From assembly GCA_011773445.1 (NCBI GenBank), contig WVXP01000026.1:19899-55700 (forward strand): a stretch of DNA of 35,802 nucleotides. The letters run 5' to 3'. Below, one piece after another: positions 4,630-28,752 of the stretch; positions within the stretch are counted from its first letter, which is position 1; every line of letters begins with the position of its first letter. The position numbers and the translations under genes are program-made. The DNA is from Pseudomonadota bacterium (GTDB lineage: Bacteria > Desulfobacterota > BSN033 > WVXP01). The notes under the pieces are model-generated. The model was not told the DNA's origin. It worked only from the letters and a program-made list of their open reading frames with translations, and made no database searches.

Positions 4630-4663
4630 GGGAATGATCTAAGAGTTGTAGACTCAGAATTGT

Positions 4664-5011
4664 GAAGTTTCCTCAGTTTTGTGGACACTCATGTCCCTGA
4701 GGGACGTTTGCGGGAGCATTTATGTTAATAAGCTCTGGGGTTCTCAGTCTATCTTTGTAGCTCATGGGTGCATCAACATTACGAACACGGCGTTAAAGGC
4801 GAAAGGTCAAAGGATCAGCGATTTGCACTTCTTGGTCTTCTTTCCTTTGTCCTTTGACCTTGATCCTTCTTTTGATTACCCTGTGAGCCCCGCGAGGGTC
4901 AAGGCGAGAGCAAGGGGACGAAGGGATATGAGGGCCCAACCAAAAAATTCAAAATTGTCTTGAAACATCAAAAGCTTACAAACTTATCGTTTTGAAAATT
5001 CAGAAAACTCC
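4664..5011 (+). mobile_element. Modular intergenic element, copy 1 (AAAGG-heptad interior)
   Basis: The left end starts GAAGTTTCCTCAGTTTTGTG and continues through CATGTCCCTGAGGGACGTTT to about 4715. The right end (about 4884-5011) includes the GAGCCCCGCGAGGGTCAAGG motif, then GGGATATGAGGG and an A/T-rich tail ending AAAATTCAGAAAACTCC. The extreme ends are inverted repeats of GGAGTTTCCTGAGTTTT type. Copies with the same arms are at 28399-28660 (direct) and 18651-19203 (reversed). From GGGAT to the terminus the right end is exactly 89 bases in all three. The middle portion differs completely between copies and here holds an inverted heptad array. No open reading frame of note is present. Confidence 0.7.
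4795..4869. repeat. Inverted pair of tandem 7-base repeats (AAAGGNN type)
   Basis: The left arm, 4795-4815, is three in-register heptamers: AAAGGCG, AAAGGTC, AAAGGAT. The right arm, 4842-4869, read on the minus strand, is GAAGGAT, CAAGGTC, AAAGGAC, AAAGGAA. The arms are separated by 26 bases, so the transcript could form an imperfect hairpin. The array sits in the interior of modular element copy 1. It has the same architecture as the GTCNGTT heptad arrays at 12767, 18889 and 34685 but a different heptamer. Confidence 0.7.
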
Positions 5012-5419
5012 GCTGAGAATTTCCTTGCTTTTTTCGGGGTTTTTTTGTTAAATCTAATTCTACTCTCTGGATACTTCGAATCTTTCAGCTGTCATGCAAC
5101 CCCAGAGTCCATGACACTGGGGATCGGCTTCAGCGAAATATGCGCCGAGAAAACTGGCACGGCACTCTGGAATCAGATCCTGCCATGGGCGAATTGCAGC
5201 CGGGATTGTCTGTTGAAAAACGCCTTTGACTACCCACTGGGTAAGTCGGATCACGATCTTCCGACCTTCAAAGACGCCCCCGCCCTGTTTCACGCGGTCC
5301 AGTCATTTTTGCTACAACATTATATCAGCAAGAGGGTGGTTTTGAAATGAGCAATCCTCGCGCCGGTCTATTATCGCAGGGTTGCATTACGATGATACCG
5401 GAAAGGGTTTAATATCAAC
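5012..5419. other. Intergenic region before the AsmA-like gene; unassigned
   Basis: There is no confident gene. A 77-codon minus-strand frame (5060-5293) and an overlapping 101-codon plus-strand frame exist. Neither resembles a family I know and neither has a convincing ribosome site. A purine-rich GGAAAGGG at about 5400-5407 lies 12 bases before the TTG start of the AsmA-like gene and may be its ribosome-binding site. Confidence 0.4.
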
Positions 5420-12580: not shown

Positions 12581-12699
12581 GATGATTCTCCTTTGTGAAG
12601 ACCTGTGGCCCATCGCGTTCGTCATGTCCGATTTAGGGCGTAATGGACTGGCGCGGACACAGGGGTCAAAGTTCAACGGACTGGTGCTCAACTCACTTT

Positions 12700-13016
12700 T
12701 TGCGACTTCTCTCTCATGAAAGCGGAAAGGGCGCTCTTCGCTGCCCAGAAATCTTGTCTTGGTGCTGTCACTTGTCGGTTGTCAGTGGTCAGTTGTAACG
12801 ATCAATTCACGTCGTTCGATTGAAAATCAAATTCCCTGGGCCCGTTACTTGAATAGCCGTGGATGCGCAAATCTTGGTCTTTATACAACGAACCACAAGC
12901 ACCGACTTTTGGTTTAGAGCTTTCTTTCCTACTTTGTGGCAAAATGCTCTTGCAAAAGCGTCGCCATATGGTTCCAAAGGAATTTGGGCCGCGGCTCGTC
13001 AATGTGTACCGACGCA
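12700..13016 (+). repeat. Dispersed intergenic repeat, copy A (GTCNGTT heptad element)
   Basis: Closely similar to 18820-19150 in the same orientation. The central 100 bases (from 12781) differ at only about four positions by eye. It carries four tandem heptamers at 12767-12794 (GTCACTT, GTCGGTT, GTCAGTG, GTCAGTT). After 92 bases the degraded inverse array follows (AACGAAC, CACAAGC at 12887-12900). A more diverged copy lies at 34640-34840. Unlike copy B, this copy has no modular-element arms that I can see around it. It fills the gap between the DUF4019 gene and the next small membrane-protein gene. Confidence 0.75.
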
Positions 13017-18650: not shown

Positions 18651-19203
18651 GGAGTTCCCTCATTTGCCAAGGGATAGGTCTCACGAGTTACCGATCTCTC
18701 TGAATATTTCCGAGTTCTCGAATGGGAAGCGGCTATCCCTTCGCTCCCTTGCTCTCGCGTTGACCCTCTTCCCGCCGTCGGCGGAACAGACGGGGACGGG
18801 CTGATGCCCAAATCCCTTTTCTCGACTTTTGTCTGATGAAAGTGGAAAAGGAGCGCTCTTCGCTGCTCCGAAAACTTTTCTTGGTGCTGTCAGTTGTCAA
18901 TTGTCAGTGGTCAGTTGTAACGATCCATTCACGTCATTCGATTGAAAATCAAATTCCCTGGGCCCGTTACTTGAATAGCCGTGGATGCGCAAATCTTAGT
19001 CTTCATACAACGAACGACGGACGACGGACCACGAGCAAAGACTTTTGGTTCAGAGCCTCCCTTCCCACTTTCTGGCGAAGTACGCTTGCAAAGCCGTGAC
19101 CTGAGTGTTCTAAAGGTTTTTCGGAACGGCCCGAGGAATACTGACACCCTTCCACCGCAAACGTCCCTCAGGGACATGAGCGTCCTCAACGCTGAGGAAA
19201 CTC
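18651..19203 (-). mobile_element. Modular intergenic element, copy 3 (reversed; contains repeat B)
   Basis: Reading on the minus strand from 19203, the left arm is GAGTTTCCTCAGCGTTGAGG, then ACGCTCATGTCCCTGAGGGA and CGTTTGCGG, as in the copies at 4664 and 28399. The right arm begins with the shared GAGGGTCAACGCGAGAGCAA motif (18748-18767). From GGGAT to the terminal GGAACTCC it is 89 bases, the same length as in the other copies although much diverged. The interior (about 18768-19140) is a complete copy of dispersed repeat B. The element occupies the gap between the GNAT gene and the ACT-domain gene. Confidence 0.6.
18820..19150 (+). repeat. Dispersed intergenic repeat, copy B (GTCNGTT heptad element)
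   Basis: The left array at 18889-18916 is four perfect 7-base units: GTCAGTT, GTCAATT, GTCAGTG, GTCAGTT. The right array at 19009-19036 is AACGAAC, GACGGAC, GACGGAC, CACGAGC, which on the other strand is again GTCNGTN-type. The 92 bases between the arrays are nearly identical to copy A (12795-12886). The arms could pair imperfectly into a long stem. It lies within the arms of modular element copy 3. Confidence 0.75.
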
Positions 19204-19372
19204 ATCAGTATAAGGCCTTGAACCCGGGATTTTTTCATGGTAAGAATGCGAGCGAATGATTCAGTGAAGGGACCTTCATCGCCCTTTGGTTTTCTCACCC
19301 CGGAAAAGGGGGGTCTCACAGTAGGCGAACAATTGGCTGGACTTACCTTGACCCGGTGTGGAGGAGTTTGCT

Positions 19373-22799: not shown

Positions 22800-22819
22800 A
22801 TTATCTCTCTATCATTTCC

Positions 22820-22908
22820 GCTTCCCTACGTTGGAATTACCCACACAGGTTCAGAGGGTCATCCCGCCCTTGCAGCAGGACGGATTTCTCAGCCCTTTGA
22901 GCTCCCCT
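22820..22908 (-). promoter_or_regulatory. TPP riboswitch (THI element)
   Basis: On the minus strand the conserved blocks are present in order: GGGGAGCTC at the 5' end, GGGCTGAGAAA, GACCCTCTGAACCTG, and TAATTCCAACGTAGGGAAG at the 3' end. These are the P1, pyrimidine-sensor and pyrophosphate-sensor segments of the thiamin pyrophosphate aptamer. A variable GC-rich P3 stem (GTCCTGCTGCAAGGGCGGGA) lies between the second and third blocks. With the terminator that follows, TPP binding is expected to switch off the thiZXY operon. Confidence 0.95.
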
Positions 22909-22922
22909 AGCGAATCTACACG

Positions 22923-26659: not shown

Positions 26660-27047
26660 GATCTTGGCCCGGCACCGTACCTGGGAGTTTCGGGCCCACA
26701 TGAGATTGCTCGCAAGCCTTTTGTTTTGGCGAAACCGCTCAGCGGAGCTCCTGAATGGCATTGTCAGTTTTCTGAATGCCGGGTGAGCGCCCCCTTCCGT
26801 ATCTTCAGTTCTTGGACGATTTTCGCTCCAAATTCTCCGGCCGATGGCGGCCCGTTGTTTGTCTTGATTCTCCTGATGAGTGATTGCTCATTGGTGAGGG
26901 TCTGTAATTCCCCGCCGGCGAATCCCGATAGGGTCACCGCTTGAGCTCAGGAGTGAAGGGACAGGAGGCTTCCACTTGAGAAATTGTAAATTTCCAAAGA
27001 AATCTGTAACTTGTGAGACATATCCCTTAGAAAATGGGGGAACTCTT
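26660..27047. other. Intergenic region after the HD-GYP gene
   Basis: The space lies between convergent genes. It holds a possible small minus-strand gene (26764-26937, separate entry). Otherwise I see no repeats, hairpin terminators or RNA motifs that I can support. Confidence 0.35.
26764..26937 (-). CDS. Possible small protein of 57 residues
   Basis: The minus-strand frame from a GTG at 26937 to a TGA at 26764 reads in a protein-like way (GELQTLTNEQSLIRRIKTNN, then GPPSAGEFGAKIVQELKIRK). Its amino acid composition is balanced, charged and soluble. No Shine-Dalgarno site precedes the GTG. I recognise no family. It could be a real small protein or the relic of a longer gene; the overlapping plus-strand frame looks less protein-like. 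Confidence 0.3.
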   Translation of the reverse strand: MTLSGFAGGELQTLTNEQSLIRRIKTNNGPPSAGEFGAKIVQELKIRKGALTRHSEN

Positions 27048-27791
27048 CTAATTCCTATAAAGTCGGCTTCTTTCTAGGTAAGACTTAATTTGCGAGGGAA
27101 CGAATTCATCAATTTCAGATCTTTGGCGTATCGCGTTTCGAATCTGAGTTGACGAAAGCCGCCTGTGTGGCAGGGGAATTTCAAGGGGGATGATTTTCTC
27201 GGCAAAAGGTCTGTTCTCCCTCTGAAGAGCTAGTCTTCGGATTTCATCGACCCTTGCATTTCCCCGGGTTGCCACCAAGAATTCAGAACCAGCAAACAGG
27301 CGGGTTAGGGAAGCATTCCGGTTTTCGTAGTATTTGGCATCGAGGACCCGGACCATTGTATCGTATCCTACAATGAATCGGATTAGGGTGTCCTTGGGGT
27401 AGGCGTCCATGATGAGTTCGAGTTTCTCAACGAAGCGTCCCCTATTGGTAAAAGCTAGGGACACGGCGGAATCCTTCTGAAAACAGAGCAGGATCATCAA
27501 GAGTCGTTCTTCCAGAGATGCTCCGAATATCTCTTTGTCGAGAGGCCTCTTGTCGAGAATCAAGAGAACCTCATCGATGGGCCTCAAGTCCCTGGCTTTC
27601 TCGATGAGTATCCTGTGGGCTTTGGTTGGGGGGTTGAATGATGAGGGTAGAACTCCGAGTGCCCTGCCCGGTTTTTTGATACCCTGAGGCGCCCTTTTTA
27701 TCCACCGGAAAATAGGAGGCCCCTCAAGGGGAACAGCTCTAATGATCCTCCTGAACCGGTCCAGCCTCAGTTTCTCATGCCTTGGTTCCAT
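27048..27791 (-). CDS. NadD/NMNAT-like nucleotidyltransferase
   Basis: A 247-residue protein of the nucleotidylyltransferase alpha/beta phosphodiesterase superfamily. The nucleotide-binding loop is LPSSFNPPTKAH (about residues 46-57, the family's GxFxPxHxGH with TKAH at the end). The C-terminal ISSTxIR-type motif appears as RRLSSTQIRNAIR near 215. NadD adenylylates nicotinate mononucleotide during NAD synthesis. An extra 40-residue N-terminal segment precedes the fold and makes it longer than typical NadD (about 200-220). The gene overlaps the upstream pncC by 17 bases. PncC makes nicotinate mononucleotide, the NadD substrate, which supports this call. The degenerate HxGH motif leaves room for another nucleotide substrate. 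Confidence 0.78.
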   Translation of the reverse strand: MEPRHEKLRLDRFRRIIRAVPLEGPPIFRWIKRAPQGIKKPGRALGVLPSSFNPPTKAHRILIEKARDLRPIDEVLLILDKRPLDKEIFGASLEERLLMILLCFQKDSAVSLAFTNRGRFVEKLELIMDAYPKDTLIRFIVGYDTMVRVLDAKYYENRNASLTRLFAGSEFLVATRGNARVDEIRRLALQRENRPFAEKIIPLEIPLPHRRLSSTQIRNAIRQRSEIDEFVPSQIKSYLERSRLYRN

Positions 27792-28263: not shown

Positions 28264-28398
28264 GGGAAACTCCGTGAGAGATCCCAACTTTATTGATCAG
28301 CCTGCATTCACCTTTGACGCCTCCTCCAGATCATATGGTTATCGGGTTTTCCGTGAGCTGTCAATTGAAAGAGGCGGTTCAAAAGGTAACACTCGAGT

Positions 28399-28660
28399 GA
28401 AGTCTCCTGAGTTTTGTGGACGCTCATGTCCCTGAGGGATGTTTGCGGAAGCGTTGGGGTACCCATCGAGGGCGAGCAGGAGGGGGAAAGCCCCGCCTTC
28501 AGAGCGGGGAAGGGGCAAGAATTCCCCACCTGTGAGCCCCGAGAGGGTCAACGCGAGAGCAAGGGAGCGAAGGGATATGAGGGTCCAATCAAAACATTCA
28601 AAATTGTCGTCAAACATCAGAAGGTTACAAACTTCTTGTTATGAAAACTCAGGAAACTCC
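28399..28660 (+). mobile_element. Modular intergenic element, copy 2 (short interior)
   Basis: The left arm is GAAGTCTCCTGAGTTTTGTG, then GACGCTCATGTCCCTGAGGG and ATGTTTGCGG, closely matching copy 1. The right arm starts GAGCCCCGAGAGGGTCAACG, continues through GGGATATGAGGGTCC and ends AAAACTCAGGAAACTCC; from GGGAT to the end it is 89 bases. The termini are inverted repeats of about 16 bases. The interior (about 28452-28530) is unrelated to those of copies 1 and 3 and holds a GC-rich hairpin (GCCCCGC...GCGGGG). It lies between the pncC and tlpA-like genes. Confidence 0.72.
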
Positions 28661-28752
28661 ACATACTCGAATCTTGACAGACCGGGGTGAGAATTGGAAC
28701 ATATAGCATCCAGAATGAATGATCCCGTTTGTTGTTATCGTTTCCATTTATC

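Follow-up and report, generated by a model that had tools for sequence, protein, structure and literature searches.

A family of MITE-like elements with mosaic interiors that lie at a fixed distance from promoter -35 boxes in a Desulfobacterota genome

The window analyzed here is a stretch of 35,802 nucleotides (C59:19899-55700) from an assembly of 3.73 Mb in 292 contigs, which is 82% complete. It holds three copies of one repeat family (copy A, copy B and the 18651 copy), a separate copy of the D repeat that also fills the third of these, half of an element from a sister family, and a riboswitch. Positions below are those of the window.

4654-4661, plus strand: target duplication of copy A, TCAGAATT
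4664-5011, plus strand: copy A, type A, 348 bp
5014-5021, plus strand: target duplication of copy A, TGAGAATT
5025-5030, plus strand: degenerate hexamer TTGCTT, 13 nt outside the end of copy A
12700-13016, plus strand: copy of the D repeat without arms
18651-19204, minus strand: the 18651 copy, type C, a chimera whose left arm is of family 1 and whose right arm is of family 2
18651-18733, minus strand: outer right arm, of the R2 type that belongs to sister family 2; it matches C267 and 26930-27049 but does not match copies A and B
18734-18769, minus strand: shared right core AGGGTCAACGCGAGAGCAAGGGAGCGAAGGGATA, 100% identical to copy B over 36 bp
18797-19124, minus strand: nested interior D, 'opposite' orientation class (19 of 39 copies)
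19155-19204, minus strand: left arm, with inverted terminus and the conserved motif CATGTCCCTGAGGGACGTTTGCGG
19218-19223, plus strand: TTGAAC, a degenerate -35-like hexamer (two mismatches to TTGACA), 13 nt beyond the left end of the 18651 copy and reading toward an ACT-domain gene at 19358
22806-22918, minus strand: TPP riboswitch, the sole Rfam match in the window
26907-27049, plus strand: right half of a family-2 element (right core and R2 outer arm), 75-80% identical to C267 and the 18651 copy
28389-28396, plus strand: left target duplication of copy B, ACACTCGA, with one mismatch to the right one
28399-28660, plus strand: copy B, type B, 262 bp, the canonical form
28663-28670, plus strand: right target duplication of copy B, ATACTCGA, followed by 3 nt
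28674-28679, plus strand: TTGACA, lying 13 nt beyond the right end of copy B and reading toward a thioredoxin-like gene at 28729

The first-pass annotation of this DNA had described three elements with a common left arm of about 50 bp and inverted-repeat termini. Both are seen in the alignment, where the left arms pair over 48-59 bp at 87-92% identity. It had also given all three a common right arm, and here the picture is mixed. The stretch from GGGAT to the terminus is indeed 89 nt in each, but the sequence of the 18651 copy differs: only a core of about 36 bp is common, and the last 89 bases are those of the sister-family arm. Since this R2 ending is otherwise found at 26907-27049 and in C267, the 18651 copy is a two-family chimera. 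It has no clear target duplication. Its interior recurs at a second site in the window, as had been noted (81% identity over 329 bp to 12676-12988).

The family reaches far beyond the window. A left-arm 26-mer, CTCATGTCCCTGAGGGACGTTTGCGG, has 131 matches in the genome at up to three mismatches, against none for a reversed control, and a 34-mer from the right core has 79, again against none. In blastn searches that scored 40 candidates each, about 40 or more copies of each element or its parts were found, and the arms occur together elsewhere in dozens of copies. Around the matches, about 436 kb (some 12% of the assembly) was read, giving 121 left arms and 81 two-ended elements; these flank and copy counts represent one fragmented assembly, taken from the searches plus the stretches read. 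The three window repeats are copies of a transposase-less mobile element with well over 100 copies in the genome. Many copies stand at contig ends (C25, C100, C148, C166, C205, C207, C244), so these repeats are a probable cause of breaks in the assembly, and the genome would hold more copies than we counted.

Across the 81 copies read end to end, the termini take the form (GT, CT or GA)GGAGTTTCCTCAGTTTT at one end and its inverse at the other, with terminal inverted repeats of 17-19 bp. The copies have transposed and duplicated their targets: exact direct repeats of 7-11 bp flank 46 of the 81, compared with 0.7 expected from shuffled pairs of left and right flanks. The duplications are mostly 8-9 bp and start most often 2 nt outside GGAG/CTCC. 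Within a copy, the outer dinucleotides of the two ends match more often than expected (37/81 vs 17) and are therefore part of the element. Three kinds of outermost dinucleotide occur (GT/AC, CT/AG, GA/TC), which seem to be inherited with sub-branches of type B.

Most elements are 260-560 bp long, the size classes span about 190-606 bp, and no transposase gene lies within the element. Inverted termini together with duplicated targets thus identify a MITE-like, non-autonomous transposon: the family has terminal inverted repeats, target-site duplication, and many small copies that carry no transposase gene. The first-pass annotation knew of no described bacterial element that matches, but the kind is already known: this is a MITE with target duplications, in which the arms themselves are mosaic (witness the sister-family right arm of the 18651 copy). 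What is unusual is the target rule and a possible new RNA, neither of which had been noticed at first. An IS200/IS605-type palindromic element, which makes no target duplication, was ruled out by the clear duplications.

Each element is built of a left arm, an interior, the right core and an outer right arm, which is R1 or, in fewer copies, R2 (alignment by size class and table of parts). The interior defines four classes: B (262 bp), G (about 294 bp), A (about 348 bp) and C (about 490-600 bp). Types G, A and C retain the ends and have the interior replaced. Type B is the widespread and probably old form; it is present in the same-family relative G001 and in G002-G005 of the same order, with fragments in another class (G026). 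The interiors had been called unrelated in the first-pass annotation, and the same arms do hold different interiors in dozens of copies, which bears out part of its suggestion of a family that exchanges its cargo. The type-C interior is not entirely unrelated, as it keeps type-B stretches (GGAAGGG..ATTCCCC and TCCCCACCTG) on both sides of D. Heptanucleotide repeats that form hairpins are frequent in the interiors (12700-13016, 18797-19124, types A and G, L242); their kinds are TTGTCAG-like and AAAGGTT-like and, in the relative G001, GTGATTC-like. Separate lineages seem to have filled their interiors with such repeats independently.

Type C follows the type-B sequence up to ATTCCCC and resumes at TCCCCACCTG, with D in between. 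Judging from the type-C consensus, this class probably arose by nested insertion of D with a short duplication of 4-5 bp. The armless D copy of C213 has TTGAA on both sides, and the target duplication of D itself is short, about 4-5 bp. Nested insertion, the other option put forward at the outset, thus agrees in part with the alignments: type C looks like D inserted into a type-B interior, with the inner part of D inverted afterwards. D is not mainly an independent repeat, as had been supposed, because 39 of the 44 D segments adjoin arms; the five that have no recognized arms include 12700-13016.

D stands one way in 20 copies and the other way in 19. Its right outermost end is the same whichever way D stands, and the reversal affects the inner part alone, so the inner part was inverted between the inverted ends of D. 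On the D tree there are about four changes of orientation, compared with 13 expected when labels are shuffled, and at least two are forced by well-supported branches. Inversions were therefore rare and followed by multiplication, and frequent flipping of the D interior was ruled out by the same tree. One further rearrangement was seen at C103:6110 (L224), where the left arm is deleted except for its terminus, which is joined straight to D.

The flanks of many elements follow a rule. In 41 flanks, TTGAC starts at a distance of 13-14 nt from an element end, compared with 0-2 at most other positions, and it points away from the element. In the range of 9-24 nt, TTGAC lies outside the left end of 27 copies and the right end of 20 (47/81 in all), and never outside both ends of one copy. 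With one mismatch to TTGACA allowed, a hexamer 12-16 nt outside is found for 51 of the 81 copies, against 3-8 of 81 in other windows of the flank; 32 of the 81 have an exact TTGACA at the target position. Thirty have no such hexamer in place and may be old copies or have used other targets. Where the duplication is exact, the gap from it to TTGAC is 3 nt in 21 of 27 copies. All three copies in the window have a hexamer at 13 nt: TTGACA for copy B (28674), TTGCTT for copy A and TTGAAC for the 18651 copy.

These hexamers are often part of recognizable promoters. A -10 box (up to two mismatches, spacing 16-18 nt) follows 26 of 46 target TTGAC sites, compared with 27 of 195 intergenic TTGAC sites away from elements (P = 7e-9); when only exact TTGACA is counted, the figures are 17/32 and 15/77 (P = 0.001). 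A crude test of gene starts did not separate the two flanks (22/45 vs 43/101). In relatives, TTGAC starts 12-15 nt outside 21 of the 53 ends read, with textbook promoters, and at L227 the targeted promoter is that of a tRNA operon. Eight copies have a second element as neighbor, spaced at exactly 12 nt in six of them, the spacing expected if the later element used the same promoter. At L243 in G001, two copies share the duplicated CTACGCGT, which is followed by TTGACA. Two loci of G026, from another class (L229 and L235), have a type-B interior, a GGAGTTTCC-type end and TTGACT 14 nt outside; this occurrence suggests old age or horizontal spread. Our literature searches turned up no account of insertion in register with the -35 box, although such an account may exist.

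The type-B consensus is predicted to fold end to end (-127 kcal/mol, z = -8.3), and the type-A fold has a z-score of -4.9. To score covariation, we used 33 type-B sequences, 22 from this genome (one of family 2) and 11 from G001, G003 and G004. Changes on both sides occur in 20 of the 48 consensus pairs. G-U cells outnumber A-C cells by 114 to 14, and more weakly when counted by columns (28 vs 13), an excess that is partly built in since the alignment that was scored had also served to predict the structure. The left-to-right strand is the more stable in all 22 own copies and in 10 of the 11 related copies; this strand bias favors RNA because a DNA hairpin would show none. Covariation and G-U bias together suggest that the type-B hairpin has been maintained as a one-strand RNA. 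The window copies have no match in Rfam 15 at the gathering threshold, nor at E ≤ 1. A hairpin with compensatory changes, conserved across genera, makes this a candidate new structured RNA outside Rfam.

We also looked for the enzyme that moves the elements. Among the matches listed for G001, G003 and G004, no pair of terminal inverted repeats encloses a transposase. In G003 and G004, the pairs at a spacing of 2 kb turned out to consist of two MITEs with ordinary genes between them, and the same holds for a pair in C267. Element-type ends were not found around members of four DDE families (PF01609, PF12762, PF00872 and PF01610) in six genomes; the own genome is incomplete. Viral contigs gave one chance match to the terminal repeat, with the left arm absent, and the exact left-arm pattern was found in none of the named genomes. 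The elements may be relics, or they may be served by an enzyme encoded elsewhere.

The explanation that we favor, and which we consider highly probable as a whole, combines promoter-registered MITE-like transposons, mosaic interiors, an old type-B RNA hairpin and a chimeric 18651 copy. Non-autonomous DNA transposons would be moved by a transposase that acts on the inverted ends described above, with the transposition complex registered on a sigma70-type promoter. Counted from the -35 hexamer, the first strand would be cut 3 nt upstream and the second after another 8-9 nt in that direction; such staggered cuts would leave the element, turned either way, with the upstream DNA on one side and an intact promoter on the other. 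The flanks show this placement as a pattern. Renewed insertion at the same promoter would yield tandems with a spacing of about 12 nt. Replacement of the interior would have given types G, A and C, type C being best read as a nested D insertion; the inner part of D would later have been inverted between its own inverted ends and multiplied with the element, and the 18651 copy is a further chimera with the sister-family right arm. Landing upstream of the -35 box would allow the family to spread without breaking genes.

Several other explanations were weighed against this one. The main rival differs from it only in how the promoter is found: the transposase would read the DNA word TTGAC(A) directly, and promoters would be targeted merely for containing it. 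We give this a chance not far below even. The tight 3-nt register fits, as does the share of exact TTGACA, which looks stronger than is typical of -35 boxes, yet -10 boxes are 2.7-4 times commoner at the targets than at other intergenic non-element TTGAC(A) sites, an excess not expected from a rule based on the hexamer alone, unless flanking A+T plays a role too. The -10 enrichment thus speaks, though not decisively, for the promoter as such, and we infer that the transposition complex recognizes promoters. It might dock beside promoter-bound RNA polymerase or sigma region 4 and make its cut at 3 nt from the -35 box, on the upstream side, with help from the conserved one-strand hairpin RNA of the element, which might for instance bind the transposase or the polymerase; this more specific proposal is tentative and rather doubtful.

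If the arms were recombination sites between which interiors are swapped as cassettes, one would understand why at least four interior types stand between the same arms and why one interior is found with either right-arm type. This cargo exchange is unlikely, as interior types are few and each is amplified, the small number of orientation changes in D (about four, against 13 with shuffling) points to rearrangement that is rare rather than ongoing, the breakpoints vary between types, and no recombinase site or gene was identified. Random intergenic insertion followed by selection, with survivors just upstream of promoters perhaps serving as insulators or upstream activators, would accord with intergenic copies that have strong hairpins and adjoin promoters; we think it quite improbable, since it could hardly yield the 3-nt register (21/27), both orientations and the same rule in other genera. 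A strong, covarying fold would also suit an immobile structured RNA gene, or a REP-like family of extragenic palindromes spread by recombination. The inverted termini and 8-9 bp target duplications of most copies, and the lack of an Rfam match, make this extremely unlikely, and in its pure form it is refuted by the target duplications.

Because bacterial genomes are gene-dense, most new insertions are harmful, and a site just upstream of an intact -35 box would be a general safe site, of which there are hundreds per genome. The elements would mark real promoters in uncultured bacteria. If recognition by way of RNA polymerase were true, it would be a new mode of target choice by a transposon and could make it possible, in laboratory strains, to place DNA upstream of promoters of choice.

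Among known systems, bacterial MITEs are the closest. MITEAba12 is 113 bp long with 16-bp ends and 9-bp duplications, is moved by ISAba12, and shows no identifiable sequence trend in its duplications (PMC6382973). Our elements are likewise small and non-coding, with inverted ends, 8-9 bp duplications and many copies. They differ from MITEAba12, with its known IS and no target motif, in their -35-registered target and in being longer and folded; no IS partner was found for them among the listed terminal-repeat pairs of three relatives and the four DDE families. TIMEs are miniature elements derived from Tn3 that form mosaic transposons (PMC4133298). They too are mosaic, non-autonomous elements around conserved ends. 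Tn3-type elements have 38-bp ends and 5-bp duplications; the elements here, in contrast, have ends of 17-19 bp, duplications of 8-9 bp and an interior that is replaced within a single element, and a Tn3-derived TIME was rejected on the ends and duplications.

REP/BIME and other extragenic palindromes consist of units of 20-40 bp (PMC2817692, PMC3733652). Our elements resemble them in being intergenic, palindromic and of high copy number, and differ in their length of 260-560 bp, proper termini and long target duplications. The target rule has a likeness in yeast. Ty1 and Ty3 are retrotransposons that integrate upstream of Pol III genes using Pol III factors. In both cases, insertion takes place in a safe haven at a fixed distance upstream of a promoter, which is left undamaged; here, however, a bacterial DNA element is involved, the promoters are of the sigma70 type, and the tethering factor is putative. 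The family would thus be a bacterial counterpart of the promoter-upstream integration by yeast Ty elements.
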